Shown here: piece after piece, positions 49,874 through 64,000 of the stretch
Position numbering within the stretch: position 1 is the first letter of the stretch
Layout of the letters: every line of letters starts with the position of its first letter
Source of the DNA: Flagellimonas maritima
GTDB lineage: Bacteria; Bacteroidota; Bacteroidia; Flavobacteriales; Flavobacteriaceae
DNA: 64,000 nt
Direction: 5' to 3'
Assembly (NCBI RefSeq): GCF_003269425.1
Contig: NZ_CP030104.1
Location: 3,133,001 to 3,197,000, forward strand
The notes under the pieces: generated by a model
What the model was told of the DNA's origin: nothing
The model's database searches: none
What the model saw: the letters and a program-made list of their open reading frames with translations, nothing else
Translations under genes and position numbers: made by a program

Positions 49874-50080
49874 TTATACTGCAATTTTCATTTCCAATTC
49901 AGGAATCATGTTTGCCGCTGCTTTTATTTTTTCATCAATGATTTTGGTATGGATTTCTCTGGTGCGAATTTTACGGTGCCCGAGGTGTTTTGAAATGATA
50001 TAAATATCTACTCCGTTTAAAAAGGATATTTTCAATGCACTTTGGCAAAGCCTGTCATTCGGAATGCGTAAGATATTCAC
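49874..50080 (-). pseudogene. C-terminal remnant of a tyrosine recombinase/integrase
   Basis: About 68 codons remain. FLNGVDIYIISKHLGHRKIR and the following TREIHTKIIDEKIKAAAN match the C-terminal catalytic end of phage-type integrases (LGH motif, then T-x-x-Y). The nucleophilic Tyr is replaced by His (REIHTK), and the preceding R-H-x-x-R box is not recognisable, so the product cannot be active. The 5' part of the gene is missing or decayed in the next about 100 nt. Confidence 0.75.
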
Positions 50081-50515: not shown

Positions 50516-50875
50516 TTATTGCAGAATAATATCGCCATCAATGTTCAATTCTTTATGAATTATTTTGGCTTGCTTAAAAGTTATTTCGCTTTCGCTTTTC
50601 AAATACCCACTTATTTTAGATTCGCTTGTGTTTAAAAGAGCGGCTAAATCTTTTCTTTTCAGGTTCATTTCCAGCATTCGCAACTCGATTACTTCTCGCA
50701 AACTGGGTAAGCCGATAGGGTAGTGGACTTCTTCATATCGTTCAACGATATTGCTGACTTCTATAAACTCTTTGGATAATGGGTTTTCCAATGGAGTGCT
50801 ATCATCTACAACTTTTATCAATTCCTCTAAGCGAAGACAGGCTTTGACGTATTCTTTATGTGATACTGTAGTCAT
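50516..50875 (-). CDS. HigA-like XRE-family antitoxin
   Basis: 119 residues. An N-terminal helical part with PLENPLSKEFIEVSNIVERY and a C-terminal helix-turn-helix (LKRKDLAALLNTSESKISGYL), the layout of HigA antitoxins that repress their own operon and neutralise a RelE-fold mRNA interferase. No HigB toxin gene lies next to it; its upstream neighbour, 6 nt away on the same strand, is a ParD-like antitoxin gene. It is therefore an orphan antitoxin, possibly acting as a plain repressor or protecting the host from toxins of other elements. Confidence 0.8.
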   Translation of the reverse strand: MTTVSHKEYVKACLRLEELIKVVDDSTPLENPLSKEFIEVSNIVERYEEVHYPIGLPSLREVIELRMLEMNLKRKDLAALLNTSESKISGYLKSESEITFKQAKIIHKELNIDGDIILQ

Positions 50876-50881
50876 AGAAGA

Positions 50882-51106
50882 TTAAGATTTTTTCTTGGAA
50901 GCAATAATATCTTTTATGGTCCTACTGCTAATAGGGCCTTCCCAACCTTTTCTGATTTCTTCTCTTAAATCTTTGATTATTGTTTCACGGTAAATGCGGT
51001 GTAAATTGATAGCATCCCTTACCACTTCACTATTATTTTGATATTCGCCAGACTTAACTAGTTTGGTTATATAATCCTGTTGTCTTTTATTAATAGTGAT
51101 ATTCAT
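50882..51106 (-). CDS. ParD-like (CC2985-type) antitoxin
   Basis: 74 residues. An N-terminal ribbon-helix-helix unit (MNITINKRQQDYITKLVKSG, then NNSEVVRDAI) and a basic C-terminal tail (GWEGPISSRTIKDIIASKKK) match ParD antitoxins, which bind DNA as dimers and block a ParE gyrase-poisoning toxin through the tail. No ParE gene follows; a HigA-like gene does, 6 nt downstream. Both genes form one short leftward operon. Start ATG at 51106. Confidence 0.8.
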   Translation of the reverse strand: MNITINKRQQDYITKLVKSGEYQNNSEVVRDAINLHRIYRETIIKDLREEIRKGWEGPISSRTIKDIIASKKKS

Positions 51107-51206
51107 TGCTATAGCTTTGAGTCATAAAGATACAATCTAATTCAATTTCCGATTTCAGATCCAAAATGTTTATTGATTATAATCATTGAGCGTGGGAAAG
51201 ATAAGG

Positions 51207-51234
51207 GCATGGAGCGTTTTTTCGCGCTCCATGC
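51207..51234. repeat. Inverted repeat, 10-bp perfect stem
   Basis: GCATGGAGCG (51207-51216) and CGCTCCATGC (51225-51234) with an 8-nt loop TTTTTTCG. It lies 100 nt upstream of the ParD-like gene start. Confidence 0.8.
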
Positions 51235-51256
51235 GGTTATGCGCGGTGCCGAGGGT

Positions 51257-51282
51257 GTTGGAAAACCCGTAGGTTTTTCAAC
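51257..51282. repeat. Inverted repeat, 11-bp arms
   Basis: GTTGGAAAACC (51257-51267) pairs with GGTTTTTCAAC (51272-51282) across a CGTA tetraloop, with one G-U pair. Confidence 0.7.
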
Positions 51283-51457
51283 TTCCGAAGGAACATGGAG
51301 TTATAAGACGGAAACCGCAATAAACCGATAATTACCTTAATCATCAAATAACGGTCAAATAAGCTGTTGCCTATGTTTATAGGGTTCATCAGTATTGTCA
51401 ATCATTATGATAGAATAGCTGTCAAATAAGATTAAGAATTATGTCGGCATTTTTAAT

Positions 51458-51485
51458 GTCAAGTTTTTTGCGCAAAAAACTTGAC
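51458..51485. repeat. 28-bp perfect palindrome
   Basis: No spacer; the centre is TTTTTTGCGCAAAAAA and the ends are GTCAAG and CTTGAC. Such uninterrupted symmetry suits a dimeric repressor site as well as a hairpin. Confidence 0.8.
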
Positions 51486-51558
51486 TTGTTGCCTTTAGTT
51501 ACTTTTCGGAAGAAAAAATTGAATGGGTAGTTTGTGAATAAACTAAGCGATACTATAC

Positions 51559-51613
51559 TGTAACCCTTTTACCTTGCGGGCAGTTAAGAAGCCCGCAAGG
51601 TAAAAGGGTTACA
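51559..51613. repeat. Inverted repeat with 23-bp perfect arms
   Basis: Arms 51559-51581 and 51591-51613 are exact reverse complements (TGTAACCCTTTTACC then TTGCGGGC on the left arm) around a 9-nt loop AGTTAAGAA. It is 100 nt upstream of abiEi and reads toward neither flanking gene end, so it is not an obvious terminator. It could be an operator, a recombination site or an RNA stem. Confidence 0.85.
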
Positions 51614-51651
51614 TGCAAAATGCAACTAAAGTTATCAGTACTTATTAAAAT

Positions 51652-51683
51652 ATGTCCAGTTTTTTAACAAATAAACTGGACAT
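51652..51683 (+). promoter_or_regulatory. Putative AbiEi operator (11-bp inverted repeat)
   Basis: ATGTCCAGTTT (51652-51662) and AAACTGGACAT (51673-51683) flank a 10-nt spacer. The site ends 6 nt before the -7 box and 29 nt before abiEi. AbiEi antitoxins are known to repress their own promoter by binding inverted repeats there, so this is the best operator candidate. Confidence 0.6.
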
Positions 51684-51689
51684 TTTAAA

Positions 51690-51697
51690 TACCTTTG
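51690..51697 (+). promoter_or_regulatory. -7 promoter box of the abiE operon
   Basis: TACCTTTG matches the Bacteroidota -7 consensus TAnnTTTG exactly and lies 15 nt before the ATG at 51713. No clear -33 TTTG is seen at the expected distance; the right half of the operator occupies that space. Confidence 0.55.
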
Positions 51698-51712
51698 TAT
51701 AAATAGTTTCCA

Positions 51713-52444
51713 ATGAAAACCTCTGAATACATTGAAGATAAGATTAATAAGTTGCCCAAAGGGTATGTATTCACCTATATGGATTTTATGAATGAGGTGA
51801 CTAGGAGGGAAGCCATCATTAAACATCTGAATAGAATGGCTGCTTCTCGTAAGATAAACAAGCTATCCAAGGGGAAATACTTCAAGCCGCAAGAAACCGT
51901 ATTTGGTACGTTGTTGCCAGACCAACACCAGATTGTAAAAGACTTATTGGAAGAAGATGGCAAACTTGTCGGATATATTACGGGGTATAGCGTTTATAAT
52001 TCCCTCGGACTTACCACACAAGTAAGTAGCACGATACAGATAGGCAAACGGGAGATACGCCCCTCTTTTAAAAGAGGGCGTTTTAGAATTTCGTTCATCA
52101 AACAGAAGAATACCATAAATAAGGAAAATATTCCTTTACTACGATTGTTGGATGCCATACGCTACATCAAGAAAATACCCGATACCACCATTGAGAAAAG
52201 CTGTATTCGATTGATGGCATTATTGCACGAATTGAAAACCAGCGAAAAAATAAAGCTAATAAAATTGGCTTTTAAATATTCTCCAGCAACCAGAGCTTTA
52301 TTAGGTGCATTGCTAAGCGAGATGGGTTGCAAGGCAGTGCCTGAACTGAGAGACCTTCAAGATAGTTTAAACCCAATAACAGTTTATAACCTTGAAATTC
52401 CTGAAAAGGTGTTGTCAAATGCTAAATACTGGAATATAAAATGA
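51713..52444 (+). CDS. abiEi: AbiEi-family type IV antitoxin
   Basis: 243 residues. The N-terminal winged-helix part (GYVFTYMDFMNEVTRREAII, SRKINKLSKGKYFKP) is the DNA-binding antitoxin domain that mediates autoregulation; the C-terminal domain is expected to carry antitoxin activity. The family counters its toxin without a stable complex (type IV). The stop overlaps the toxin start by 4 nt (ATGA). An inverted repeat and -7 box immediately upstream fit negative autoregulation. Gene symbol by family. Confidence 0.85.
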   Translation: MKTSEYIEDKINKLPKGYVFTYMDFMNEVTRREAIIKHLNRMAASRKINKLSKGKYFKPQETVFGTLLPDQHQIVKDLLEEDGKLVGYITGYSVYNSLGLTTQVSSTIQIGKREIRPSFKRGRFRISFIKQKNTINKENIPLLRLLDAIRYIKKIPDTTIEKSCIRLMALLHELKTSEKIKLIKLAFKYSPATRALLGALLSEMGCKAVPELRDLQDSLNPITVYNLEIPEKVLSNAKYWNIK

Positions 52445-53421
52445 AGCTGCACGAGAACGAACAACTTTTCAGGCAAGCGGTACAAGCAACCGCACAACGG
52501 ATGGGTATTTTAGATATCTACATCGAAAAGGACTATTGGGTATGCTATGCCTTAAAACTGATCTTTGATAGTGCAATCAAAGATGAAGTCATATTTAAGG
52601 GCGGCACGGCCTTGTCAAAGTGTTATAAATTCATCGAACGTTTTTCCGAGGATATTGATCTAGTCGTATTGCGCAGGGAAGAAGAAACAGGGAACCAACT
52701 AAAGACGAAGCTCAAAAAAATTACTAAGGAAATAACCGCGCCATTCGTAGAGGTAGAAATGGAAGGGATTACCAACAAAATGGGAATGATTCGAAAGATA
52801 GCATATAACTACCCCAAAATTTTTAAAGGAAATTACGGACAGGTACGAGATGCCATTATCATAGAAGCAACATGGTTGGGCCATTTTGAACCATTCACTA
52901 AGCGAGTCCTGAATACCTATATCTATGATATGATGAATGCCACCAACCAAATGACATTGGCGGAAGAATATAACCTACTGCCTTTTGAAGTACTTGTATT
53001 GGATTCTCGTAGGACGCTTTGTGAAAAGATAATGAGTTTAGTTCGGTTTTCATATACTGAAAAACCAATTATCGACTTGAATGCTAAAATCAGGCATGTG
53101 TATGATATTCATCAATTATTAAAGGATGAAACGGTGCAAGGGTTTTTTACTTCGGATGCCTTTGATACGATGCTTTTAAAAGTAGCTCATGATGACGTAC
53201 AAAGTTTTAAGAACAACAACGATTGGTTAAAACACCACCCAAAAAAAGCGTTGATTTTTAAAGAACTTGAAGAAACGTGGAACCAACTTAAAGACACCTA
53301 TCAGAATGACTTTAAGTTTTTGGTTTATGGGGAGTTGCCAAAAGAGGAAAGCGTATTGAAAGTAATTATTAAGGTTTCTGAGAGATTGGAAAAAGTAAAA
53401 TGGTCAATATTGCTAAAATAA
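52441..53421 (+). CDS. abiEii: AbiEii-family nucleotidyltransferase toxin
   Basis: 326 residues. A DNA-polymerase-beta-type nucleotidyltransferase with the motif GGTALSK (residues 54-60) and SEDIDLVV (Asp71, Asp73), plus EKDYWV at 29-34, all typical of AbiEii. Family members transfer nucleotides to tRNA or other targets and arrest growth, giving abortive infection against phage. Coupled to the antitoxin gene by an ATGA overlap. The catalytic residues look intact, so an active toxin is expected. Confidence 0.9.
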   Translation: MKLHENEQLFRQAVQATAQRMGILDIYIEKDYWVCYALKLIFDSAIKDEVIFKGGTALSKCYKFIERFSEDIDLVVLRREEETGNQLKTKLKKITKEITAPFVEVEMEGITNKMGMIRKIAYNYPKIFKGNYGQVRDAIIIEATWLGHFEPFTKRVLNTYIYDMMNATNQMTLAEEYNLLPFEVLVLDSRRTLCEKIMSLVRFSYTEKPIIDLNAKIRHVYDIHQLLKDETVQGFFTSDAFDTMLLKVAHDDVQSFKNNNDWLKHHPKKALIFKELEETWNQLKDTYQNDFKFLVYGELPKEESVLKVIIKVSERLEKVKWSILLK

Positions 53422-53479
53422 AACAATGAACTTTCAACTCTAATGGTTTTATTCTCGTACTTGTATTTACTTTAATATT

Positions 53480-55432
53480 ATGACCAAACCACGCTACCTA
53501 ACCAAATCAAGATTTAAATTGGCACTGAGCTGCCCTACCAAACTGTTTTATGCAAATAAGACAGATTATGAAAATACAAGTAAAACCGATACTTTTTTGG
53601 AGGCTTTGGCCCAAGGTGGTTTCCAAGTAGAAGAATTAGCACGAATGGAATACCCCAAAGGTGTTGCCATTCTAGGAAGGGATTGGGATTATGATACATT
53701 AGTAGCTAGAACAAATGAATTACTAAAACAAGAAAATGTTGTCATTTTTGAACCAGCTTTTCTAGTAAACGGACTATTCATCCGGGTTGATATTTTAGTA
53801 AAACATGGTTCTGAAATTCAGCTAATTGAAGTCAAATCAAAATCAGTTGATAGTACTTTACATCAGAGCTTTATTACAAAAAGAGGTGGATTAAGTTGGC
53901 TAGAATATTTGTACGATGTGGCCTTCCAAAAATATGTAATACAAAAATGTTATCCCGCTTGGAATGTAACGCCATATCTTAACCTAGTTGATAAATCTAA
54001 ATTAACTTCTGTTGATGGCTTAAATCAAAAGTTTAAGATTGTTCAGAACTCGGAAATGAGAACAGGAATATTAAAAGCTGAGGGACTTACCAAAATGGAT
54101 ATTGGCAATCCAATTTTGTGTTTGATAAATGTTTCTCAAGAGATTCAATTGATATTTGATGAGAACCCAGCATTTAATAGTGAATCTTTTGAAGATAGTA
54201 TTACTAATTTCAAAGAACATTACGCAAACGATATAAAAATACAAACACCTATTGGTAAGCATTGTGATGGTTGTGAGTTTCATTGCGATGGTATCGATAA
54301 AAATTTAAAAAGTGGTTTTCACGAGTGCTGGATGTCTCAGCTTTCAATTTCAAAAACCCGTGTCGATGCACCAAAAGTGTATGAAGTTTGGAATTTTCGT
54401 GGAAGTAAAAAACTTATGGATGAGGGTGTCTATTTTATGGATGAAATTCAAGAATATCAAATAGAGATAGAACCAGAAGCTGGTATTATAAGTAATTCAG
54501 AACGACGATGGTTACAGATTGAAAAGACAAAACAAAATAGCAGCGAGCCATTTGTAGAATTGGATGGGTTAAAAATTGAAATGGCGAAATGGATTTATCC
54601 ATTGAATTTTATTGATTTTGAAACTACAGCGGTAGCTATTCCGTTTACGGCGGGCAGACACCCCTATGAACAGCTAGCATTTCAGTTTAGTCATCATATT
54701 TTTTTTGAAGATGGTCGAATCGAACATTTCAATGAGTATCTTGATACAACCGTAGGCCACTTCCCAAATTTTGATTTCATAAGAGCTCTAAAGAAAACAC
54801 TGTCTATAAATGAGGGTAGTATTTTTCGATATCACAACCATGAAAATATTATTTTAAATAAGATTCATGAACAACTTTTGGCAAGTTCAGAGTCAGATAA
54901 AGAAGAACTAATCGACTTTATTGAAAATATAAGCCATAATACCGATAGTTCGAGCAAAAAGTGGTGTGGCGATAGAGATATGATCGATTTGTATCAAGTA
55001 ATTAAAAACTACTATTTTAACCCCGCGATGAATGGTAGTTTGTCCATAAAGGCGGTTCTACCTGCTATTTTAAATACAAGTCATTTTATTAAGAAAAAGT
55101 GCCAAAACGATATAGGCTCTATTAACATTACCTCTAAAAACTTTCCGCCTGATTACATATTTCTACACTTGGAAAATGGAAATGCAATAAACCCATATGC
55201 AGCACTTCCTCCAGTTTACGAAGACTGGACGCAGGACCAATTAGAAAATGCTTTAACAGGCGTTGGTATAATTTCCGATGGTGGGGCGGCTCTTACGGCC
55301 TATGCAAAATTGCAATTTGAAGATGTTTCTGTTGAAGAAAGAGGTGTCTTGGAAAATGCTCTCCTTCGTTATTGTGAACTCGACACCCTAGCTATGGTTA
55401 TGATTTTTGAGCATTTTAAGGAGCTGGTCTAG
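53480..55432 (+). CDS. DUF2779-type protein: Cas4-like nuclease plus DEDD exonuclease
   Basis: 650 residues. The N-terminal half looks like a Cas4/AddB-type PD-(D/E)XK nuclease: Cys18 in SCPTKLFYAN, Asp104 in FIRVDILV, Glu117-Val-Lys119 in LIEVKSKS, and a cysteine set Cys262, Cys265, Cys269, Cys283 able to hold an Fe-S cluster with Cys18. The C-terminal half starts with FIDFET (Asp379, Glu381), the first DEDD exonuclease motif, continues with RYHNHENIIL near 450 and ends with CELDT (Asp635), as in DUF2779 proteins. It should degrade DNA or RNA. It sits 58 nt after abiEii and before the reverse transcriptases, so a defence role is likely but not shown. Confidence 0.75.
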   Translation: MTKPRYLTKSRFKLALSCPTKLFYANKTDYENTSKTDTFLEALAQGGFQVEELARMEYPKGVAILGRDWDYDTLVARTNELLKQENVVIFEPAFLVNGLFIRVDILVKHGSEIQLIEVKSKSVDSTLHQSFITKRGGLSWLEYLYDVAFQKYVIQKCYPAWNVTPYLNLVDKSKLTSVDGLNQKFKIVQNSEMRTGILKAEGLTKMDIGNPILCLINVSQEIQLIFDENPAFNSESFEDSITNFKEHYANDIKIQTPIGKHCDGCEFHCDGIDKNLKSGFHECWMSQLSISKTRVDAPKVYEVWNFRGSKKLMDEGVYFMDEIQEYQIEIEPEAGIISNSERRWLQIEKTKQNSSEPFVELDGLKIEMAKWIYPLNFIDFETTAVAIPFTAGRHPYEQLAFQFSHHIFFEDGRIEHFNEYLDTTVGHFPNFDFIRALKKTLSINEGSIFRYHNHENIILNKIHEQLLASSESDKEELIDFIENISHNTDSSSKKWCGDRDMIDLYQVIKNYYFNPAMNGSLSIKAVLPAILNTSHFIKKKCQNDIGSINITSKNFPPDYIFLHLENGNAINPYAALPPVYEDWTQDQLENALTGVGIISDGGAALTAYAKLQFEDVSVEERGVLENALLRYCELDTLAMVMIFEHFKELV

Positions 55433-55642
55433 AGTAGTTGCTATTTTCATGGATTAATTCCGCAGTCATTTGATTGATTTTTCCTTCAATCAGAAAAATA
55501 CTTTATTTTTAGAGACCTAAACAATCCTAACCAATCAGATGATTCTACTACAAGATTTAGTACTTAAGAAGTGCCTCATACATCCAGGCCAACAATCTTT
55601 CAGAAAGGTTTACAATGAATGTGCTAATAGCTTTTTAAGCTT
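55433..55642 (+). promoter_or_regulatory. Leader/promoter region of the reverse-transcriptase operon
   Basis: 210 nt between the nuclease gene and drt3a. TGATTGA / TCAATCA (7 bp) forms a small hairpin near 55470-55491, and an AT-rich TACTTTATTTTT follows that could contain the -7 box. No CA-repeat is present. It is the alternative place for the system's ncRNA, but I see less structure here than downstream of the second RT. Confidence 0.35.
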
Positions 55643-56971
55643 ATGTTAGACCAATCATTTTCAGCGAAGAACTTTAGAATCATATTTGACATCTCAAATA
55701 GAAACGGCTTTTTTGTAGAAGATAAATTGAGTTTAAGTTCAATAAGAAAAGTAACCGAGGAGATTAAGGTTTATGGCAACCTAGCAAAAAGCTATAATAA
55801 ATCTGGAAATAAAGTACTTGCTCATTTTTTTAATGAAGTAAAGGAGCAGTTGAGAGAAGTAAGGAATGTTGAAATTGATAATGTACTTGAAGAAATCAGC
55901 TTAATAATATCACAGAGCGATTTTAAAATCGAATTGAAACAAATTAAAATCCCTGGAGGAAAAGATTTGTATACCATTACAAATAAGCCTGAGTATTTCT
56001 TTGCAATAAAGCAGGCTCAATTTAACATTTCAAGACTGTTTGGAGTAAAACAATCTAATCGTCATAGCATAGTTGAACAGCTATTCACATTACTTAATGA
56101 CAAGTTTCCCAAGACTGTTATTAGAACAGACATATCTAGCTTTTACGAATCCATAGACCATGAATCTTTAGCAAAGCATATAAATCATGATAATTTGCTA
56201 TCCCCAAAATCTAGAAAGATAATAAACAGTATTCTTAGGAGCTACAAGGTTCTCTCCGGCTCAAATAAAGGCGTACCTCGTGGGATAGGGGTAAGCGCAT
56301 ATTTATCAGAATTATTTATGCGTAGAATTGATCAAACCATTAGAAGTATTCCGGGTGTTACATATTATGCCAGATTTGTTGATGACATTGTGGTAATTTT
56401 TACTCCAAATCCAAATGAACCAGGCAGAGTATATCTAAATGAAGTGAAATATGCTATCGAAAAAAATAGTTCCATAAGAACGAATCCTGCTAAAACTTTT
56501 CCACTTTCCATTGTTGATTTAAGCATCAAACACAATTTTGAATTTTTAGGATACGAATTTATCATACAACATGGCAAAGTAAAGACCAAGCTGACATCAG
56601 CCAAGTTTGATAAACTGGAAAAAAGAACTGAACTGGCATTTGACCACTATGTAAATTTTTCAAAAGTTAACAAAAAGGAAGCAAGAAAAATACTTGTGAA
56701 ACGGATTAGGTTTTTAACTGGCAATACTAGATTGGCCAACAATAAGGCAAAAATTTTAATTGGTATTTATTATTCAAATAGTTCTCTTACAGAAATGGGG
56801 CAAATCAAAAGGTTAAATGCAAGACTAAAAAGGCAAATAAATACACGAATTACATCTGTATCGCTCAAAAAAAGACTAAATAGGTATGATTTCATAGACA
56901 GTTTTGAGAACAGGAATTTCTCTTCTTTCAGTTCCGATGAACTAAAAGCAATAATGCAAATTTGGAAATAA
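55643..56971 (+). CDS. drt3a: Reverse transcriptase, Drt3a-like (first RT of a DRT3 pair)
   Basis: 442 residues. RT palm motifs are intact: Asp163 in RTDISSFYESID (motif A), GVPRGIGVSAYLSELF at 210-225, FVDD at 245-248 inside YYARFVDDIVVIF (motif C) and FLGYEF at 301-306. N-terminal about 140 and C-terminal about 130 residues are helical and without a maturase, HNH or integrase domain, which argues against group II introns and retroelements. It abuts a second, larger RT gene (TAA directly followed by ATG). Of the known defence RTs, a tandem of a shorter and a longer RT with an ncRNA is DRT type 3, so I assign Drt3a. From memory, Drt3a uses an ACACAC template in the ncRNA to make poly(GT) DNA. 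Confidence 0.82.
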   Translation: MLDQSFSAKNFRIIFDISNRNGFFVEDKLSLSSIRKVTEEIKVYGNLAKSYNKSGNKVLAHFFNEVKEQLREVRNVEIDNVLEEISLIISQSDFKIELKQIKIPGGKDLYTITNKPEYFFAIKQAQFNISRLFGVKQSNRHSIVEQLFTLLNDKFPKTVIRTDISSFYESIDHESLAKHINHDNLLSPKSRKIINSILRSYKVLSGSNKGVPRGIGVSAYLSELFMRRIDQTIRSIPGVTYYARFVDDIVVIFTPNPNEPGRVYLNEVKYAIEKNSSIRTNPAKTFPLSIVDLSIKHNFEFLGYEFIIQHGKVKTKLTSAKFDKLEKRTELAFDHYVNFSKVNKKEARKILVKRIRFLTGNTRLANNKAKILIGIYYSNSSLTEMGQIKRLNARLKRQINTRITSVSLKKRLNRYDFIDSFENRNFSSFSSDELKAIMQIWK

Positions 56972-59011
56972 ATGCCAAAGAGTAAAAAGAATATTACAAA
57001 CAAAAAGGAAAGAGCGGTATTATCCGATATTTTACCCTTTGAAACACCTGCAACATTTTCAAATCGATATTTTTATGACTTTTTGATATCAAATGGTATC
57101 GAACTGAGGGGGAATGTGTTGACTTGGAGAAGTGGAAATCAGACTTTAAATAAAATCGTCAAATTAATATTTGCTCTTGGTCCTAAAGAGATTGCGAATG
57201 AAACGGATGGAAAAATAACTTTGTCCCCAGGCGCACTTAAAGCAATACCTTTTCACTACAAAATTTCACATAAACAAAAGGAATTTCGGGAGCTTACCGT
57301 TGTTCATCCAAAAAATCAACTAGCGGTTATTGAGTTTTATGACTTATGCAAGGAGTTAATTCTTTACTATTGCGATGAGAGCAAATTCTCTATAAGGAAA
57401 CCATTTAAAACGGCTAAATTCACTTATTTCAAGGATAGACTTCACTACGATAAATTGGCTCAAGATCACGAAGTGGTTGGGGTCGAGGAGTTTGACAAGG
57501 AATACGAAAATTTGAAAACATTTTTTTCGTACAAAGAAATTAGTAACATTCATAAATTTTATGAATCCTATAAATATCATCGGTGCGAGAAAAAGTATAA
57601 AAACCTCTTCAAGTTTGACATATCAAAATGTTTCGATAGTATATATTCTCACTCTATTACTTGGGCATTGCTAGATAAGGATATGGTTAAAGATGAAATA
57701 CCAATTTCAAAGCTAACATTTGGGGGCAAATTTGACAGGTTAATGCAAGATTTAAATTATGGAGAGACAAACGGTATTGTCATTGGCCCTGAGTTTTCTA
57801 GAATTTTTGCTGAAATTATACTACAGAAAATTGATAAAACGGTTCAGTTAAAGCTTTCGAATAGAAACGAACCAATAATTTTCAGAAAGGATTATGAAGT
57901 TTTCAGATATGTTGACGACTACTTTATTTTTTATAATGATGTATACGTTAAAGAAGAGGTACTTGGGCTTTTTAGATTACATCTAAGAGATTACAAATTA
58001 GGACTGAATGAGGGAAAATCGGAAGAGTACAAAAAGCCAATACTAACAGGAATAACCGCTGCCAAGGTCGGAATAGTCAAGCTTCTAGATAAAAAAATGT
58101 CTTTTAAGTCTAAACAAGAGACAAGTTCCCTTGCCAATGATTCTGACGATAATATTCTAACTTTTTATGTCAGTTCTAGTACTTTAATTACTGAGTTTAA
58201 AATTATTTTAAAGTCAGCAGACATTAATTACAAGGATATTCAAAACTTTACACTTGGCTGTATTGACAACAAAGTAATAAGCTTTATTCATCTTTGCTCC
58301 GATACTGTTCAAAACGAGAAACAATTAGGAAAGGTCTTTTTGGAAATTCTAGATTTTGCATTCTTCGTTTATGCGGTCACTCCACGAGTAAACAGCACAA
58401 TTAAATTGTGTTCAATATTGAGTAAGGTTATTCAATTTGCGAAACTTAATTTAAACTCGGATTTAAAGAACCGAATATTTAAGAAAATTTATGATGAGAT
58501 ATTTTTGGTGCTCAAAAAATCAAGAATTCAAGAGCATGTTCAAATTGAGACATTATATCTTCTTATTACACTTAATGATTTAGGTAGAGATTATCGACTG
58601 GAAGAAGAGGTTCTGTGTTTTTATTTTTGCATCGATTTGTCAAAGAAAAAGTGCAATTATGAATTGCACTACTTTACAATCACGGTATTGCTATTTTATT
58701 TAGGTAACAAAGCCAGATATGTGAAAACGAAAAAGATTTTAGAAAATTATATTTTGGAACTAATGTCCAATGTCTCAAAAGAAAATAGATTTAGAAAAAC
58801 AGAACTGATCTTATTGTTTTTCGATTTGTTAAGCTGTCCCTATATTGATAGAGTATTTAAAAACAAGCTATTTTTACTTTTTGGGATTCCGTCTACTCAG
58901 GGAAGGCTCAGGACTAGTATTATTAATTATAGAAAGTATTGGTTTACTAAATGGGATAACTTTAATTTTGGGAAAGAGTTAGAGGCTAAAAAAAGCCAAG
59001 AAGTGTACTAA
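56972..59011 (+). CDS. drt3b: Reverse transcriptase, Drt3b-like (second RT of a DRT3 pair)
   Basis: 679 residues. Palm motifs: Asp216 in KFDISKCFDSIYSHS (motif A), TNGIVIGPEFSRIFAEI near 266-282, and YVDD at 313-316 in FRYVDDYFIFY (motif C). An about 200-residue N-terminal part has no recognised domain, and a 280-residue C-terminal part is alpha-helical, as in UG8/Abi-type RTs. The start codon directly follows the drt3a stop, so the two are translated together and probably form one complex. From memory, Drt3b makes the complementary poly(AC) strand without a nucleic-acid template. A structured 118-nt region with a terminator follows. Confidence 0.82.
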   Translation: MPKSKKNITNKKERAVLSDILPFETPATFSNRYFYDFLISNGIELRGNVLTWRSGNQTLNKIVKLIFALGPKEIANETDGKITLSPGALKAIPFHYKISHKQKEFRELTVVHPKNQLAVIEFYDLCKELILYYCDESKFSIRKPFKTAKFTYFKDRLHYDKLAQDHEVVGVEEFDKEYENLKTFFSYKEISNIHKFYESYKYHRCEKKYKNLFKFDISKCFDSIYSHSITWALLDKDMVKDEIPISKLTFGGKFDRLMQDLNYGETNGIVIGPEFSRIFAEIILQKIDKTVQLKLSNRNEPIIFRKDYEVFRYVDDYFIFYNDVYVKEEVLGLFRLHLRDYKLGLNEGKSEEYKKPILTGITAAKVGIVKLLDKKMSFKSKQETSSLANDSDDNILTFYVSSSTLITEFKIILKSADINYKDIQNFTLGCIDNKVISFIHLCSDTVQNEKQLGKVFLEILDFAFFVYAVTPRVNSTIKLCSILSKVIQFAKLNLNSDLKNRIFKKIYDEIFLVLKKSRIQEHVQIETLYLLITLNDLGRDYRLEEEVLCFYFCIDLSKKKCNYELHYFTITVLLFYLGNKARYVKTKKILENYILELMSNVSKENRFRKTELILLFFDLLSCPYIDRVFKNKLFLLFGIPSTQGRLRTSIINYRKYWFTKWDNFNFGKELEAKKSQEVY

Positions 59012-59019
59012 AAATATAC

Positions 59020-59129
59020 GCTCCGCTCAAATAAATGACTCTTTCGAGGGTTCACACACAAGCGTTCTATTTGACCTTCGATAAAAGAAGATTAAATATA
59101 AAGAAGCAGCCTGAGCGGGCTGTTTTTTT
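59020..59129 (+). ncRNA. Candidate DRT3 non-coding RNA with CACACACA template loop
   Basis: Region between the drt3b stop (59011) and a T-run. The stem 59022-59029 (TCCGCTCA) pairs with 59112-59119 (TGAGCGGG, one G-U) and encloses a hairpin: 59044-59051 (TCGAGGGT) pairs with 59074-59081 (ACCTTCGA, one G-U). The 22-nt loop contains CACACACA at 59053-59060. A (CA)n tract displayed in a loop is what a poly(GT)-making RT would need as template. The 3' end is set by the terminator at 59106-59129, which competes with the closing stem. The 5' end is unknown; it may be processed from the drt3 mRNA or have its own promoter. Inferred from sequence only. Confidence 0.62.
59106..59129 (+). terminator. 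Rho-independent terminator of the drt3 operon/ncRNA
   Basis: CAGCC (59107-59111) pairs with GGCTG (59118-59122) around TGAGCG, followed by seven T's (59123-59129). Confidence 0.8.
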
Positions 59130-59216
59130 ATGGTTATTTATAGTGACGGAATTAAAGGTTGTAATTGCCTAGATAATTTCAGTCCCAAATCTTACCCCAA
59201 AACTTTGCGCGTGGAT

Positions 59217-59273
59217 CCTGTCCGGTTTTTGTAGTGATTCCGGCAGATTAGCGTGAAGCAAAAACCGGATAGG
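59217..59273. repeat. Inverted repeat with 15-bp arms downstream of the mob operon
   Basis: CCTGTCCGGTTTTTG (59217-59231) and CAAAAACCGGATAGG (59259-59273) pair over 15 bp with one G-U. It lies 8 nt after the stop of the last leftward mob-region gene (59281). It may terminate that operon, though no T-run follows, or be part of a transfer or replication site. Confidence 0.6.
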
Positions 59274-59280
59274 GCGCACC

Positions 59281-59736
59281 CTACTTTTTGCTTTGGGGTT
59301 TTAGCCATTCTTTATAGAGTTCGCTGGCCTCTGGGCTTGCCTCGAAGAAAGCCCTGAAATGCCCGACCGCCTTTTCTTCTCCCTGTCCATAAGCTTCCTG
59401 CTTTATTTCAGGGATTCGGGAGACTTTATAAATGGAGAATCCTAGCACCAAAATTACGCAAACCATTAACCCCACGAACAATTTGACTGCCCATTTCGGA
59501 AAAGTCATGGACTTTTTTATATAGTAGACCACGTTACCCATTAGTTTGTGTTGGTCATCAATGGCTTTCTTTTGGTCGTCATTGTAACGTCGTAGGATAA
59601 AGTCAATGTCCGTGGTGTCGGGCTTGATTTTATAGTTTCTCAAAAAAGCTTGCATCTCTTCTAAGCGACTTATCGAGTTTTCGAATTCCTTGATTTCCTC
59701 TGTTAGCAATTCTGCTATTTCGTCTAGTTTTGCCAT
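59281..59736 (-). CDS. Mobilization-linked single-pass membrane protein
   Basis: 151 residues. An N-terminal coiled coil (about 1-40, LTEEIKEFENSISRLEEMQA), a middle helical part, one membrane helix at about 85-107 (WAVKLFVGLMVCVILVLGF) and a soluble Gly/Glu-rich C-terminal tail. I do not know a function, but small membrane proteins of this build regularly follow the relaxase gene in Bacteroidota mobilizable elements. The gene lies 4 nt after mobA and is certainly co-transcribed. A role in docking the relaxosome to a helper conjugation channel is inference. Confidence 0.7.
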   Translation of the reverse strand: MAKLDEIAELLTEEIKEFENSISRLEEMQAFLRNYKIKPDTTDIDFILRRYNDDQKKAIDDQHKLMGNVVYYIKKSMTFPKWAVKLFVGLMVCVILVLGFSIYKVSRIPEIKQEAYGQGEEKAVGHFRAFFEASPEASELYKEWLKPQSKK

Positions 59737-59740
59737 AATA

Positions 59741-60610
59741 TTAAATTTCCATTCCTAATCCAATTGTTTTCTTAACAGCCAATTTGAGTGCCTTTTTTGT
59801 GATGCTCGTTGCCAAGTTGGGCGTTATCTCTACAGTTTTTCCGAGCATTGATAGGGAGTTTTCCTTGGCTATCTTTTGGGCAACATTTCTATCAAAACCA
59901 ATCCGTTCGGCAATTCGCCCCATTGACATTGAACGATGTACTTCACTTCCTTTAAGGTTTTGGCCTTTGTATTCAAAACGGAAACCCCGCAACTGATTCG
60001 ATTTATTGATGCTTGGAATGACTTCTACATTCCTTTGTTTCATGTATTTGATGTATTGGTCAAAATCCTTGGGCTTCATATCCGCAATAACCTTTTCGTG
60101 GACTTGCTTTATTTCCAGGCGTACATAATTAATTTCGTTCAACTTTTCCTGTTGCACTTGTTTTACCGTTGTCAAACCCATTTGTTGAGCCACTTTTTCT
60201 GCCGCCTGTTGGCTTCGTTTCCCGATATAGTTGTCCTTGAAGGCCTTGCCGTCAAAACCGATGCGGTTCACATATAAATGGATGTGCAAATGACTTTTAT
60301 CTTGATGTACAAAGGCGATGGCCTGTCGTTCTTGTAGTTTCATTTCTTTAATGAATCTTTCTGTAATTTCCTTCAGTTCTTTTTCTTTTAATTTTTGTCC
60401 ATCTTGTATCGTGGGACTAAGGACGAAACTCAACGTATTCTTTTTACAGCGATGGTTTTGTGATTGAATGATTTTGAATTCTTGTGTAATCTCTTTGGGG
60501 TTGTCGCCAGCCAAATGTTCGCGATAAACCACCTTGGCATCTTTCTCTTCGTTCCACCCATAACCCATGGAGGCTCCCGTATGCGATATGGATTTTCCCA
60601 TGCCTATCAT
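59741..60610 (-). CDS. mobA: MobA-type relaxase (mobilization nuclease)
   Basis: 289 residues. The relaxase/mobilization nuclease domain has the three-His metal site HLHIHLYVNRI near residue 116 and FVHQDKSHLH before it; HTGASMGYGWN near residue 10 is typical of Bacteroidota relaxases of the MOBP type. It nicks oriT, becomes joined to the 5' end and pilots the strand. The start overlaps the mobC stop by 4 nt (ATGA). It is short compared with many relaxases and has no primase or helicase fused; the separate primase gene upstream may supply that. Confidence 0.9.
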   Translation of the reverse strand: MIGMGKSISHTGASMGYGWNEEKDAKVVYREHLAGDNPKEITQEFKIIQSQNHRCKKNTLSFVLSPTIQDGQKLKEKELKEITERFIKEMKLQERQAIAFVHQDKSHLHIHLYVNRIGFDGKAFKDNYIGKRSQQAAEKVAQQMGLTTVKQVQQEKLNEINYVRLEIKQVHEKVIADMKPKDFDQYIKYMKQRNVEVIPSINKSNQLRGFRFEYKGQNLKGSEVHRSMSMGRIAERIGFDRNVAQKIAKENSLSMLGKTVEITPNLATSITKKALKLAVKKTIGLGMEI

Positions 60611-60903
60611 TTTTTAAAATTGTAAAGATGTTTGCGTATTTCATTGGCCAGTTGTACCACTTCATCGGCCAATTTCGGATTTCGTTTTCGGTACATATTC
60701 CCTATACGTTTAAAGTTGACTTGATACTGGACCAACAATTTATAAACATCGATTTGTTCATCGGAAAACCGTTCGACAATTCTATGGTCAAAGGCGGCAC
60801 GACGACAGTACTCACTTATGGAAAGTCCGCTCTTTTTGGCCTTAATTTTGAGCAGTTTCTTCTCATAAATGGAACATCGAAATTGTACAAATTCCTTTTT
60901 CAC
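60607..60903 (-). CDS. mobC: MobC-type relaxosome accessory protein
   Basis: 98 residues. Start is GTG at 60903, as no ATG exists between the upstream stop and the conserved KKEFVQFRCSIYEKKLLKIK. The ribbon-helix-helix-like N-terminus and the helical C-terminus (NFKRIGNMYRKRNPKLADEV) match MobC proteins that bind oriT and help the relaxase open the strands. It is followed by mobA with a 4-nt overlap. The inverted repeats just upstream are candidate binding sites. Confidence 0.85.
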   Translation of the reverse strand: MKKEFVQFRCSIYEKKLLKIKAKKSGLSISEYCRRAAFDHRIVERFSDEQIDVYKLLVQYQVNFKRIGNMYRKRNPKLADEVVQLANEIRKHLYNFKK

Positions 60904-61061: not shown

Positions 61062-61919
61062 CTACGTTCCGTATCCTCCATTCGTCCCTATCCACATCTC
61101 ATTAATATCTTTGTAATCTTTATATAAATAAGATTTATCGATGCATCCTTTATGGTTTTGCATCAACCAATTTGTCGCTTCTTTTCCTGCTTTATCATTG
61201 TCTAGATACAGTTTCACATCCTTGAACATTTCTATGTGTTTCATGGCCTTTTTAAGAAAGGACAGCGAGTTTAAAATGAGAAAGGACATGTTGTCGTGGC
61301 AGAAGTTGGTGACCGTTAAAAAATCGAACATTCCTTCCGTTACCACTAGCTGCATACATCCGTTTGAAAAATAGGTAATGTCCTTTGGGGAGGAAGAACT
61401 CTTGTAGTATATGTTTCGAAGTTCCCAACCGCCCGAATCGTTTTGTAGGCCAATGGCGAAATAGTGGTTTCCTTTTCGGGAGTAATGGACTTCCTTACAG
61501 TATTTATTTGCGGTTTCTAGGGTTATGTTTCGTTTCTTCAAGTAAACTTTCAGTCCGTAGTGCCAAATAGGATTGGCACTTTTTATAATCAATTTATTGT
61601 TGGATGGCGGAATAAACGGTTGCGGGTGAAAAGAAAGAGAGGGCGGTACGTCCGACAAGAAGTCGAGCGCGTCTCGAAGACGGCAGTCGTAAAACCGGAT
61701 GACCAGATCGAGAACGTTTCCCCCAAAACCAGCACCGTGGTCAAACCATAGGTTCTTGATTTTAGACACCTTGAAAGAGGCATGGGTTTCCGGCCGAAAT
61801 GGACTTAGGAACCAAGCTTCTTTCTCCGTCTCCCTTTTCGGAAAGTGTCCGGCTTTGGCCATCGTTTTTACGATGCAAACGGCACGGACTTTTTCCCAGC
61901 ATATCGGCTCCTTTTTCAT
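61062..61919 (-). CDS. DnaG-like primase with Toprim domain
   Basis: 285 residues. The N-terminal part resembles the DnaG zinc-finger/catalytic entry (WFLSPFRPETHASFKV, WFDHGAGFGGNVLDL) but without an obvious full zinc-ligand set. The Toprim domain has the catalytic Glu in LVVTEGMFDFLT and the acidic pair in LYLDNDKAG. It probably primes complementary-strand synthesis after transfer or during element replication. The start overlaps the upstream HTH gene by 4 nt (ATGA). Common in Bacteroidota mobilizable elements. Confidence 0.85.
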   Translation of the reverse strand: MKKEPICWEKVRAVCIVKTMAKAGHFPKRETEKEAWFLSPFRPETHASFKVSKIKNLWFDHGAGFGGNVLDLVIRFYDCRLRDALDFLSDVPPSLSFHPQPFIPPSNNKLIIKSANPIWHYGLKVYLKKRNITLETANKYCKEVHYSRKGNHYFAIGLQNDSGGWELRNIYYKSSSSPKDITYFSNGCMQLVVTEGMFDFLTVTNFCHDNMSFLILNSLSFLKKAMKHIEMFKDVKLYLDNDKAGKEATNWLMQNHKGCIDKSYLYKDYKDINEMWIGTNGGYGT

Positions 61920-62203
61920 CTGCGCTTATTTTTAAAGGTGTAGTTCAGGGCTTCCGTTTCGATTTCCGAGATTGATTTTCGACTGTTCTGTAAAAGCCAC
62001 GTATTGAGTTTGGCCTTTTCAAAGAATATCAGTTTACCGTTGGGTTTTGAGTGTGGGATATTTCCAGATGCTGTCAATTTGTACAGATAGCTTCTCGATA
62101 TTCCGGTATAGTCACAGGTTTCTTCAAAGGTGAGTACTTCCTTATGGGCTGTTAAAAGCCGTTCTAAACGATCAAGTCGTTCAAGGATTAAAAAATTGTC
62201 CAT
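61916..62203 (-). CDS. Excisionase-like helix-turn-helix protein
   Basis: 95 residues. A MerR-like winged helix of the HTH_17/excisionase class: LTFEETCDYTGISRSYLYKL, TASGNIPHSKPNGKLIFFEK, with a basic C-terminus. It starts with a short coiled segment (LERLDRLERLLTAHKEVLTF). It probably acts as recombination directionality factor or as repressor of the mob operon; it is the first gene of that leftward run. A palindrome lies 28 nt upstream of its start. Confidence 0.85.
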   Translation of the reverse strand: MDNFLILERLDRLERLLTAHKEVLTFEETCDYTGISRSYLYKLTASGNIPHSKPNGKLIFFEKAKLNTWLLQNSRKSISEIETEALNYTFKNKRR

Positions 62204-62230
62204 TGGTTTCCTTTTTAGGGTTACGAAATG

Positions 62231-62248
62231 AACAAAAGCGCTTTTGTT
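62231..62248. promoter_or_regulatory. 18-bp perfect palindrome upstream of the excisionase-like gene
   Basis: AACAAAAGCGCTTTTGTT, starting 28 nt before the ATG of the leftward HTH gene. Position and symmetry suit an autoregulatory operator. Confidence 0.5.
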
Positions 62249-62317
62249 TTCTTTTAAATAATTCTTGGGATAAAGGTAAAATAAAGGAAAGGGGGAAGCT
62301 AGATTTTTTGATTTAAG

Positions 62318-62326
62318 TTATCCACA
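62318..62326 (+). other. DnaA-box match
   Basis: TTATCCACA, the perfect consensus 9-mer, in an AT-rich region. One such site is expected by chance about every 130 kb on a given strand at even composition, so it is only suggestive. Confidence 0.25.
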
Positions 62327-62450
62327 AAAAACTGATATACAATGACTTATGTTAAATGAATTCAAATGAAATCATATATAATTTGGAAATTTAGATTTGG
62401 TTTCAAATGGCTTCAAATGCTATCATTTGATTTTTGGCAAAAATCAAAGA

Positions 62451-62556
62451 ATTTTGAGTTATCAACAATTTGAGATAGCTAAATACGAAAATGTTAGTTT
62501 AAAAAAGGGTCGATTATATTGTTTTAGGAGCAGGCCATTACATAGTTGCTATTTGA
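62451..62556 (+). repeat. About 105-nt dispersed direct repeat, copy 2 (decayed gene end)
   Basis: Counterpart of 37814-37918. Reads ILSYQQFEIAKYENV, then after a 1-nt insertion VDYIVLGAGHYIVAI up to TGA at 62554-62556, the same end point as copy 1. The matching reading frame identifies both as remnants of one protein family's C-terminus. Confidence 0.65.
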
Positions 62557-62700
62557 AGAATGTTAACATGCATATGAAGGATGCTGTTCTATTATATTAA
62601 AGGTTTGCTTCTTGAGACCAAAGAAATAAAGAAATTTTCTTTCTAGTCAATACCGATTAATATATCGACTTAATAGCAGGAGTCAAAATCTTTGAATAAA

Positions 62701-62734
62701 CTTCACGAAATGAGCAAAACTCATTGCTGTGAAG
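62701..62734. repeat. Stem-loop
   Basis: CTTCAC / GTGAAG outer arms (62701-62706, 62729-62734) and AATGAG / CTCATT inner arms (62709-62714, 62720-62725) with a CAAAA loop. No T-run follows. Function unclear. Confidence 0.5.
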
Positions 62735-62870
62735 TTAGCTCGAGATTAATTTTATTCCTTGATATATGTTACTATAAAGGGATTTGTTATTTTTAATAAA
62801 GAAGTATATAATTAATGTGAGTTATGCTACAAGCATTAATTATAGGATATTTTAAATTATTGAACATTCT

Positions 62871-64000
62871 ATGATACGTCATAATCTTAAACTTATAATC
62901 AGGAATTTGTGGGCAAATAAAATATATACTTCTATTATTCTATTGAGCCTAGTAGTGGCTTTTGTATGTTGCAATATCCTCATATCATTTCTCGTTTATG
63001 AAACAAATACGGATAAATTTCATTCCAAGCAAGATAGGATATTCCAAGTATTCAGTAATGATCCATTTGGCGAAAGTGGCCGCATTCCCTATATACCCAA
63101 GTTTCTTTATGGCTATTTAACCAACAATTATCCAGAAATTGCCGATGTAAGTCAGATTGGAAATTTAGATAAAGCTTCAATTGAGGTTGAAAAAACCATT
63201 TTTAAAGATTTAAATATTTTGTTGGCCGATGAGTCATTCTTTTCAGTTTTTGATTTCCCTATTGGTCAAGGAAATAAAAGTGGGGGATTGTCACCTGGTA
63301 ATATTGTACTCACACAAGAAAAGGCTGCTATTTTATTTGGGGATTCGGAAGCGGTCGGTAAGTCTGTTTCTTTAATTACTCCCGATACTATCCAGCAAAT
63401 GACCGTTTCGGCTATTGCAAAAAAGTCGAACTCGAATAGTCATTTATCTTTTGATGCCTTAGTGCATCATTCCAATTTTGAAAATAGATGGAATGGCGGA
63501 CCCAGCTATGCTTTAATGACGAGCAATAGTTCTACGGAAGCCTTGCAAAGCAAGATCAAGGCAGATAGTATACGACCAGGATTACTTGGCCCTGGCAAAA
63601 TGGACTACTTCTTTGAGCCCTTAAGTAATTCTTATTTCACCGCTGAAAATAAAATGAAATACATGAAAACAAGAAACCCTACCTTTTTGAAGGTCGGGTA
63701 TATAGTTTGCGGCTTGATTCTCTTTATTGCAAGCTTTAATTTCATAAATCTATTCTTGCTTTTTTGGCAGGATAGAAGAAAGGAAATGGGTATTAAAAAA
63801 ACTCTTGGAATTACTCAAAAAGGATTGTTCTACTTCTCAATAGCAGAAGCAGGATTTTACATTATTACTAGTTTTTTATTATCGCTTATTATAACACTTC
63901 TAACAATTCCTGTATTCAATTCTGTTTTTGAGGCGAACCTATCACCAGAGTATTTGTTGAATATAGAGGTTGCTTCACATATAGCTTTAGTCATTCTTTT
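62871..64000 (+). CDS. MacB/FtsX-type ABC transporter permease (partial, runs off right edge)
   Basis: First about 376 residues from ATG at 62871 (MIRHNLKLIIRNLWANKIY). One N-terminal membrane helix (IILLSLVVAFVCCNILISFL), a large periplasmic MacB_PCD-like domain (about 45-270, VLTQEKAAILFGDSEAVGKS) and the start of the FtsX permease core (about 280 on, LFLLFWQDRRKEMGIKKTLG). Such proteins work with a LolD/MacB-type ATPase in envelope stress, lipoprotein or small-molecule export. The second half, if this is an eight-helix double FtsX protein, lies beyond the window. It is outside the mobile element. Confidence 0.88.
   Translation, partial: MIRHNLKLIIRNLWANKIYTSIILLSLVVAFVCCNILISFLVYETNTDKFHSKQDRIFQVFSNDPFGESGRIPYIPKFLYGYLTNNYPEIADVSQIGNLDKASIEVEKTIFKDLNILLADESFFSVFDFPIGQGNKSGGLSPGNIVLTQEKAAILFGDSEAVGKSVSLITPDTIQQMTVSAIAKKSNSNSHLSFDALVHHSNFENRWNGGPSYALMTSNSSTEALQSKIKADSIRPGLLGPGKMDYFFEPLSNSYFTAENKMKYMKTRNPTFLKVGYIVCGLILFIASFNFINLFLLFWQDRRKEMGIKKTLGITQKGLFYFSIAEAGFYIITSFLLSLIITLLTIPVFNSVFEANLSPEYLLNIEVASHIALVIL

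Follow-up and report, generated by a model that had tools for sequence, protein, structure and literature searches.

The stretch of 64,000 nucleotides from Flagellimonas maritima analyzed here (contig NZ_CP030104.1, positions 3,133,001 to 3,197,000 of the forward strand; hereafter the window) very probably harbors a genuine and complete module of the type 3 defence-associated reverse transcriptases (DRT3), in which the reverse transcriptase (RT) genes drt3a and drt3b are followed by a non-coding RNA (ncRNA). This assignment is drawn from the identity of the genes, the intact catalytic, gate and primer residues, the template, the covarying pseudoknotted fold of the RNA and the linked evolution of the two RTs. 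The module is of a known kind and, because the mechanism of DRT3 was published in 2026 for Escherichia coli, the locus itself is not a new system. As judged from the RNA comparisons, a compact fold in which a covarying pseudoknot links the template domain to the terminator loop is a well-supported common feature of window-type DRT3 RNAs, which account for 85 of the 98 loci compared. As far as a limited literature search shows, this compact pseudoknotted RNA is undescribed, and the word "pseudoknot" is absent from the main text of the E. coli study (PMC13174585).

The two reverse transcriptases and their conserved residues

The features of the two genes on which the assignment depends are as follows.

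55643..56971, plus strand: drt3a, UG3/Class 2 RT of 442 aa, with the FVDD codons at 56375-56386
56972..59011, plus strand: drt3b, UG8/Class 1 RT of 679 aa, with the YVDD codons at 57908-57919
57041..57043, plus strand: codon for E24 of Drt3b, corresponding to E22 (the A gate) of E. coli DRT3b (EcoDRT3b) by alignment to structure 26cz
57800..57802, plus strand: codon for R277, corresponding to R241 of EcoDRT3b (the C gate, or alternation switch); R in 98 of 98 Drt3b
59006..59008, plus strand: codon for Y679, the last residue, corresponding to the priming Y666 of EcoDRT3b

A preliminary description of the window had reported two abutting RT open reading frames (ORFs) of these lengths with intact FVDD and YVDD motifs, and its coordinates for them proved exact. 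The ATG of drt3b directly follows the stop codon of drt3a with zero gap, FVDD occupies residues 245-248 of Drt3a, and YVDD occupies residues 313-316 of Drt3b. It had further proposed that the pair represents the UG3 and UG8 classes that together constitute DRT3, and the profile search that it recommended placed both proteins in these classes. Drt3a matched NCBIfam NF041747 with 377.6 bits (cut-off 200; E 1e-112) and the PADLOC Drt3a profile with 374.2 bits, and Drt3b matched NF041748 with 732.5 bits (cut-off 350; E 5e-220), with which PADLOC agrees. Given these E-values, the assignments to Drt3a and Drt3b are not due to chance. RVT_1 is the only Pfam domain in either RT, no maturase or integrase domain is present, and matches of both proteins to group II and retron RT models lie far under the cut-offs, in keeping with the earlier statement that intron, retron and integrase domains are lacking.

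Comparison with solved structures leads to the same classes. The sole solved relative of Drt3a by sequence at E <= 0.001 is chain 9z6y_A, the Drt3a chain of its structure (E 5.5e-22), and the nearest two of nine solved chains for Drt3b are 26cz_A (E 1.1e-85) and 9z6y_H, the Drt3b chain (E 8.7e-69). Chain 26cz_A is a SUMO-fused protein named "RNA-directed DNA polymerase", and 26cz most likely is the EcoDRT3b of PMC13174585, since its length and the positions of E22 and R241 fit after removal of a 108-residue tag.

The loci used for comparison were the best 80 of 310 genome matches and 20 viral contig loci, in which distant DRT3 is under-sampled. The 102 entries were reduced to 98 by removal of L001, which is the window itself, and of L095, L098 and L099, in which the Drt3b ORF is shorter than 600 aa; the remainder comprises 85 window-type loci (the window and L002-L085), 11 E. 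coli-like loci, and L100 and L101. Going by the record names, we take these loci to span Bacteroidota, Proteobacteria, Acidobacteria, Verrucomicrobia, Nitrospirota and others.

The two genes overlap or lie at most 60 nt apart in 87 of the 88 loci with usable lengths of both (start codons being assigned mechanically for this count), and the distances in the Drt3a and Drt3b trees are correlated with r = 0.94 over the 88 loci, the permutation maximum being 0.22. The window groups with L002-L005, all Flavobacteriia by title, in both RT trees with support 1.0. The pair is thus not shuffled, and the correlation is that expected for genes inherited together; the co-occurrence in related genomes, on which the preliminary description had made its proposal depend, is borne out. 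The two RTs differ in class and are dissimilar, as two unrelated single-RT defence genes abutting by chance would be, but the spacing in 87 of 88 loci, the matching trees and the common downstream RNA motif make such a coincidence extremely improbable.

The catalytic residues are maintained throughout. All 88 aligned Drt3a proteins possess the catalytic Asp pair, and R-[YF]-V-D-D is likewise found in 88 of 88. In Drt3b of the window, E24, R106, D216, F221, R277, YVDD and Y679 correspond to E22, R71, D182, F187, R241, YVDD and Y666 of EcoDRT3b, and all of these are invariant in the 22 rows of alignment A1, which contains the window and 21 chosen homologues of 51-74% identity. Over the 98 Drt3b there is no variation at R106, D216, F221, R277, Y313 or either catalytic Asp; V314 is conserved in 95, and the E24 position is E in 97 and D in one. 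A Tyr is located within the last two residues in 97 of 98, and lies five residues from the end in L100.

The single Drt3b of the 98 with Asp at the E22 gate is that of L096; the corresponding E22D form of EcoDRT3b is described as partially active (main text of PMC13174585). Two loci on viral contigs, L100:3962-5983 and L101:3995-5893, encode Drt3b-class RTs (PADLOC 398.8 and 378.6 bits) in which E and R align with the DRT3b gates and a Tyr is located near the C-terminus. Drt3a is unmatched on both strands of these loci and the 220 nt downstream contain no ACACAC; they are possibly stand-alone UG8 systems.

A predicted compact RNA with template and pseudoknot

The predicted RNA directly downstream of drt3b consists of the following elements.

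59014..59130, plus strand: predicted DRT3 ncRNA of compact type; 100.9 bits with covariance model R1, sole match in the 64 kb window (the window being 1 of 30 model rows)
59053..59060, plus strand: template CACACACA, directly downstream of drt3b and 41 nt after its stop codon
59018-59021 with 59062-59065, plus strand: P1, which encloses the template loop (at the fifth position of the helix, 59017-59066, the window has T opposite T); pairing in 94.0% of cells, double changes in 3 of 5 pairs
59023..59029, plus strand: 5' strand of the pseudoknot, CCGCTCA; pairing in 89.7% of cells, double changes in 5 of 7 pairs
59112..59118, plus strand: 3' strand of the pseudoknot, TGAGCGG, in the P4 loop, pairing with 59023-59029
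59037..59052, plus strand: P2 hairpin, which abuts the template on its 5' side and is a possible template boundary; 68.1% of cells paired on alignment A2
59069..59097, plus strand: P3 hairpin; pairing in 71.4% of cells, double changes in 10 of 10 pairs
59097..59132, plus strand: P4 hairpin and T-run, terminator-like, with P4 itself at 59105-59124 and its loop used by the pseudoknot; 97.2% of cells paired

The preliminary description had recognized that the genes end in a terminator, and the hairpin and T-run at 59097-59132 agree with it; the 3' end of the RNA, at about 59130-59132, lies beyond the limit of 59129 given there. The loop closed by P1 contains the 5' strand of the pseudoknot, the P2 hairpin and the template, and all helices of the model can be formed by the RNA of the window, P1 and P3 each containing a single mispair. 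A scan of the window with Rfam gave nothing at the gathering score, and a sigma-70 promoter scan of 53300-59300 gave 27 matches against 24.4 in shuffles, that is, hardly more.

In 95 of 98 loci the 220 nt downstream of drt3b contain ACACAC, compared with 1 of 90 for the sequence upstream of drt3a, 3 of 98 for the opposite strand, and 1 of 87 and 2 of 83 for sequence farther downstream. The three loci without it are L073 (Gilliamella), which has only CACACA, and L100 and L101. No template or gate variant predicting a different product was found in the 98 loci, in which the deviations are those of L073, L100 and L101 and the Asp in place of E24 in L096.

RNAs could be parsed in 80 of the 98 loci. 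The 18 unparsed loci are L010, L011, L030 and L055, in which the parse was partial and P1 fell below threshold, L024, in which the template lies at least 100 nt from the stop codon, the 11 E. coli-like loci, L100 and L101. A hairpin at the P2 site was found in 65 of the 80 parsed loci, the shuffled expectation being 18.6. Alignment A2 contains 30 RNAs chosen from 52 non-redundant loci (Drt3b less than 75% identical); the other 22, with longer or different loops, were excluded because they are poorly alignable, and the A2 covariation figures therefore describe the better-behaved part. On A2, the proportion of paired cells is 83.0% (66.7% in shuffles), double changes affect 222 cells (83.6 in shuffles) and the covariation score is 0.538 (0.253 in shuffles); none of 500 shuffles reaches any of these values. 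When the partners are slid by 1-3 columns, pairing on A2 falls to 35-44%.

Because the shuffle control on A2 does not keep relatedness, an alignment-free test of the pseudoknot was added, in which all 52 non-redundant loci were used and the 5' strand of each locus was matched to its own P4 loop or to the loops of other loci. Own loops scored 798 compared with 598.7 for others (sd 17.9; z 11.1), the best of 5000 permutations reaching 661, and two shifted control segments gave z 1.3 and 1.0. The effect persists as the identity ceiling is lowered, with z 9.2 below 60% identity (35 loci), z 6.6 below 50% (19 loci) and z 4.3 below 45% (7 loci, in which the permutation maximum equals the observed value).

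Model R1 was built from 30 window-type RNAs including that of the window, and the pseudoknot was left out of it. At E <= 1 it found the RNA in 53 of 54 further window-type loci, L055 being missed; at E <= 0.01 the count is 43 of 54, and 10 of the 53 matches lie between E 0.01 and 1. L028 was also matched, with 89.3 bits. The matches lie on the same strand as drt3b and start 1-129 nt after its stop codon, and many are close relatives of model rows. R1 gave no match in the 14 viral-contig loci L086-L099, in L100 and L101, or in 20 DUF2779 loci without DRT3 (the DUF2779 family is considered below).

The intactness of the RNA and of the RTs also bears on the reading of the locus as a decayed or silent DRT3 copy on a mobile element. 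An apparent broken integrase remnant at the left flank of the island, as judged by eye, would fit this reading, but both RTs are full length, the tested residues are intact and the RNA can form every helix with two mispairs, which leaves this reading quite improbable.

Predicted mechanism and relation to the E. coli system

According to the main text of the E. coli study, EcoDRT3a copies an ACACAC RNA template into poly(dTdG), and DRT3b makes poly(dCdA) without a template, with E22 and R241 as gates and Y666 as primer (PMC13174585). The two strands anneal, the duplex is limited by RecBCD, and Gam triggers abortive infection; EcoDRT3 protects E. coli K-12 and is not propagable in E. coli without any one of the RecBCD subunits (PMC13174585). 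The locus of the window resembles EcoDRT3 (PMC13174585; structures 9z6y, 9z6z and 26cz) in the order drt3a-drt3b-ncRNA, both catalytic sites, the E, R and R gates, the C-terminal priming Tyr and the ACACAC template downstream of drt3b. Because the template and E24, R106, R277 and Y679 are present, this DRT3 is predicted to make a poly(GT)/poly(AC) duplex, and its products and mechanism appear to be predictable with high confidence.

In the mechanism proposed, Drt3a would copy ACACAC of the downstream ncRNA repeatedly into poly(dTdG), resetting on the repeat, and the P2 hairpin and/or the pseudoknot may stop it at the 5' edge of the template. Drt3b, gated by E24 and R277 and primed by Y679, would make the complementary poly(dCdA) without a nucleic-acid template. 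The strands would then anneal to duplex DNA that is kept low by host double-stranded DNA (dsDNA) exonucleases, and a block of these exonucleases by phage would let the duplex rise and lead to cell arrest. The DNA products, duplex formation, nuclease guard and abortive infection are predictions carried over from the E. coli experiments. A boundary role is suggested for the P2 hairpin or the pseudoknot because the template boundary of telomerase RNA is a stem-loop or pseudoknot (PMC12632851). DRT10 and telomerase RNA resemble DRT3 in that a short RNA template, with a structured element at its 5' edge, is copied into tandem repeats. The templates of DRT10 vary between systems, whereas that of DRT3 is near-invariant and a second RT serves the other strand.

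The host genome (3.77 Mb, a single contig) encodes a RecB/AddA-like protein of 1047 aa with a PDDEXK_1 match and, about 5 kb from its gene, a protein of 960 aa with PDDEXK_1, which is probably AddB-like. Because both of these proteins are present, a guard nuclease is plausible without a gene linked to the module.

The viral-contig loci L086-L099 are called E. coli-like because L086 shares its window score and its E22 segment with 26cz. Their Drt3b proteins are 27-32% identical to that of the window, and in the midpoint-rooted Drt3b tree the deepest split, with support 1.0, separates the nine of these loci whose two genes are both usable from the remainder, the window included. EcoDRT3, which is itself not among the sequences of the tree, is placed with them on the basis of scores and residues and most likely belongs there. 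Their template mostly lies 118-200 nt after the stop codon, compared with 41 nt in the window, whose RNA is about 117 nt long and has a pseudoknot to its terminator loop; the E. coli-like loci are unmatched by R1. In single-sequence folds of 10 E. coli-like loci, inspected by eye, the template is mostly located 3' of a hairpin and inside an outer stem, and no terminator-loop pseudoknot was evident. Because these folds also have them, the closing stem and the template look essential to the DRT3 RNA. One of the E. coli-like loci, L088, has two candidate template positions. The published RNA model was seeded on EcoDRT3 and close relatives and finished with 32 unique hits, a figure legend giving 41 homologous systems (main text of PMC13174585).

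Several points weigh against this interpretation. The Drt3b of the window is far from the E. coli enzymes and R1 matches 0 of 14 E. coli-like loci, and because of this the mechanism may depart from that of E. coli where it relies on contacts with the RNA. The P2 hairpin was not found in 15 of the 80 parsed loci, so that P2 may be dispensable or replaced. On A2, the pairs with a double change number 28 compared with 24.9 in shuffles, a value reached by 35 of 500, and further pair types number 78 compared with 72.9, reached by 33 of 500. The own P4 loop is the best or tied best partner in just 12 of 52 loci, because several sequence families recur. The match of the 1047-aa host protein to RecB falls below the RecB cut-off. 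The invariance described here was found with the best 80 of 310 genome matches and may not extend to distant DRT3, and for the window locus the RNA and the DNA product are predictions from the sequence.

A 2026 review treats as open whether all DRT3 share one architecture or include subtypes with different motif outputs, and asks for natural active-site variants (PMC13314766). The present survey answers this in part, as the template, the E and R gates and the primer Tyr are nearly invariant in 98 loci and the RNA scaffold has at least two forms. The preliminary description expected a Bacteroidota example to help in telling essential features from accidental ones, and this has held in part: template and gate residues are near-invariant while the RNA architecture differs from that of E. 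coli-like loci. The compact pseudoknotted RNA offers a small testable model for template recycling by Drt3a.

The adjacent predicted DUF2779 exonuclease and the island

The following features surround the module.

53480..55432, plus strand: predicted two-domain exonuclease of 650 aa, with a Cas4/RecB-like PD-(D/E)XK motif and a C-terminal DUF2779 domain
51713..53421, plus strand: AbiEi/AbiEii-type pair (PADLOC AbiEi 181.6 bits, AbiEii 354.3 bits)
59741-60610, minus strand: MbpB-like relaxase, a mobilisation gene, below the NCBIfam cut-off
60607-60903, minus strand: MbpA, a mobilisation gene, above the NCBIfam cut-off

The AbiE pair, the DUF2779 protein and the mobilisation genes agree with the defence-cluster setting proposed earlier, and the mobilisation genes beside DRT3 constitute a mobile-element context. 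AbiE was considered as a partner of DRT3 and rejected, no homologue being found beside the other DRT3 loci fetched by then.

The DUF2779 domain (PF11074) of the 650-aa protein scores 80.5 bits against a gathering score of 23.3. Its motif residues are D104, E117, K119 and Q150 in the N-terminal part and D379, E381, D503 and D635, of a PolB-type 3'-5' exonuclease fold, in the C-terminal part; the D, ExK, Q and C-terminal nuclease motifs are conserved in relatives, except that one linked copy (L008) is without the last exonuclease motif. Structure comparison of the C-terminal half (residues 370-650) gave an exonuclease fold. The N-terminal part of the model is absent from the VIA-align rows. The Foldseek rows, for which the part of the model covered is unspecified, are headed by exonuclease and ACE1 chains, with E 3e-3 to 0.07 for exonuclease, ACE1 and Cas4 and none at or below 0.001; the family may resemble Cas4-family nucleases such as the Argonaute-associated ACE1. 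Pfam Cas_Cas4 matched below cut-off only, in 3 relatives. A 3'-5' exonuclease activity has been predicted for DUF2779, which occurs alongside the Cas4-like DUF83 (PMC3985635). No link between DUF2779 and DRT systems was found in titles and abstract openings.

Of the clusters formed by the 537 ORFs that neighbour DRT3 in the fetched loci, DUF2779 is the most widespread, with 12 of the 100 other loci, and with the window it is immediately adjacent to DRT3, on either side, in 13 of 101. The 12 genes lie 107-479 nt away with no ORF of at least 100 aa between, 10 downstream and 2 upstream of DRT3 and 2 on the opposite strand, and PF11074 is over cut-off in all 8 that were scanned. The flanks of some loci are short, which makes this count a minimum; a flank of at least 1 kb upstream of drt3a is available in 86 of 97 loci. 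In 397 genomes of the family, Drt3b is over cut-off in 10, with one more cut by a contig end, and DUF2779 is present in 50; it neighbours DRT3 in 5 of the 11 family DRT3 loci, the window included. The 650-aa type was counted by us in 25 genomes, in 2 of which its frame is short or split. DRT3 is also present in 5 of the 25, giving a Fisher p of 2.4e-4, or 1.7e-3 without the genome of the window itself. The genome samples and the 100-locus set overlap (L027 = G327, L037 = G218, L044 = G124, L050 = G008). In L211, of the same genus, DUF2779 is located 3 kb from drt3a with genes between.

A partnership of the DUF2779 exonuclease with DRT3 is thus statistically supported, and a role in restraining the duplex DNA is an unproven proposal; the adjacent enzyme may take part in limiting or in exploiting the duplex. 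The chances are about evenly divided that DUF2779 is an independent island gene which shares the neighbourhood. Such a gene would be expected to occur often without DRT3, as DUF2779 does (in 11 of 35 fetched loci a WYL-type regulator is close by), yet DUF2779 is the immediate neighbour in all 12 cases of the first set and forms the most frequent cluster (but lies 3 kb away in L211), and AbiE, of the same island, recurs beside no other DRT3.

Alternatively, and more tentatively, the exonuclease may be a functional partner that degrades the poly(AC/GT) duplex until phage disturbs it, and thereby a linked counterpart of RecBCD. This is consistent with the adjacency in all 12 loci that have it, in several arrangements, with the 5 of 11 family loci and their Fisher value, with the conservation of both nuclease motifs and the exonuclease fold of the C-terminal half, and with the dependence of E. 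coli DRT3 on every RecBCD subunit for propagation described in the main text of PMC13174585. Against it, 88 of 100 other loci (some with short flanks) have no neighbouring DUF2779, which is common without DRT3 (50 of 397 genomes) and near a WYL-type regulator in 11 of 35; the host has other RecB/AddA-type nucleases; the adjacency figures ignore defence-island clustering, and several of the 12 loci are related; and the linked copy in L008 is without the last exonuclease motif.

The exonuclease is unlikely to be an effector that degrades phage or host DNA once activated by the repeat DNA. The same linkage would fit, and how the duplex stops phage is unsettled in E. coli (PMC13314766), but most DRT3 loci in the set have no neighbouring DUF2779, and EcoDRT3 protects E. 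coli K-12 yet PF11074 is found in 0 of 14 named control genomes.

A broader model that includes the guarding exonuclease must be regarded as rather doubtful. Outside the E. coli-like lineage, DRT3 would be a telomerase-like minimal ribonucleoprotein with a single short RNA, in which the pseudoknot ties the template loop to the terminator, so that only finished and correctly terminated RNA serves as template. A subset would carry its own exonuclease leash, which destroys the poly(AC/GT) duplex until phage disables it, and the toxin-guard circuit would be portable on mobile elements instead of depending on host RecBCD. The linked DUF2779 exonuclease would allow a direct test of whether dsDNA exonucleases guard DRT3.

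The WYL-type context was seen for 650-aa DUF2779 proteins in L181, L183, L189, L194, L197, L198, L200, L211, L212, L214 and L215, in which the regulator is within two genes and no DRT3 is directly beside (two representatives were scanned); DUF2779 and the WYL-type regulator possibly form a defence unit of their own that lacks DRT3.

At the left edge of the island, positions 49900-50100 on the minus strand read, by eye, like a C-terminal remnant of a tyrosine integrase, and because this integrase looks broken, parts of the island may be decaying. No direct repeat of at least 11 bases was found between the flanks 49600-51712 and 61900-63100, and no tRNA was found in the window. A 119-aa ORF at 50516-50875 on the minus strand resembles the N-terminal part of PADLOC PD-Lambda-2_B (44.5 bits) and is, we presume from its appearance, antitoxin-like.

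A second recurrent neighbour of DRT3 is located upstream of drt3a in 11 loci (L018, L024, L025, L028, L029, L053, L057, L069, L071, L081 and L082). It has T5orf172/MUG113 domains in the one scanned (L069), and in several loci it overlaps or nearly abuts drt3a. In 7 of these 11 loci a further recurrent protein is encoded, with a weak helicase match in the one scanned (L028).

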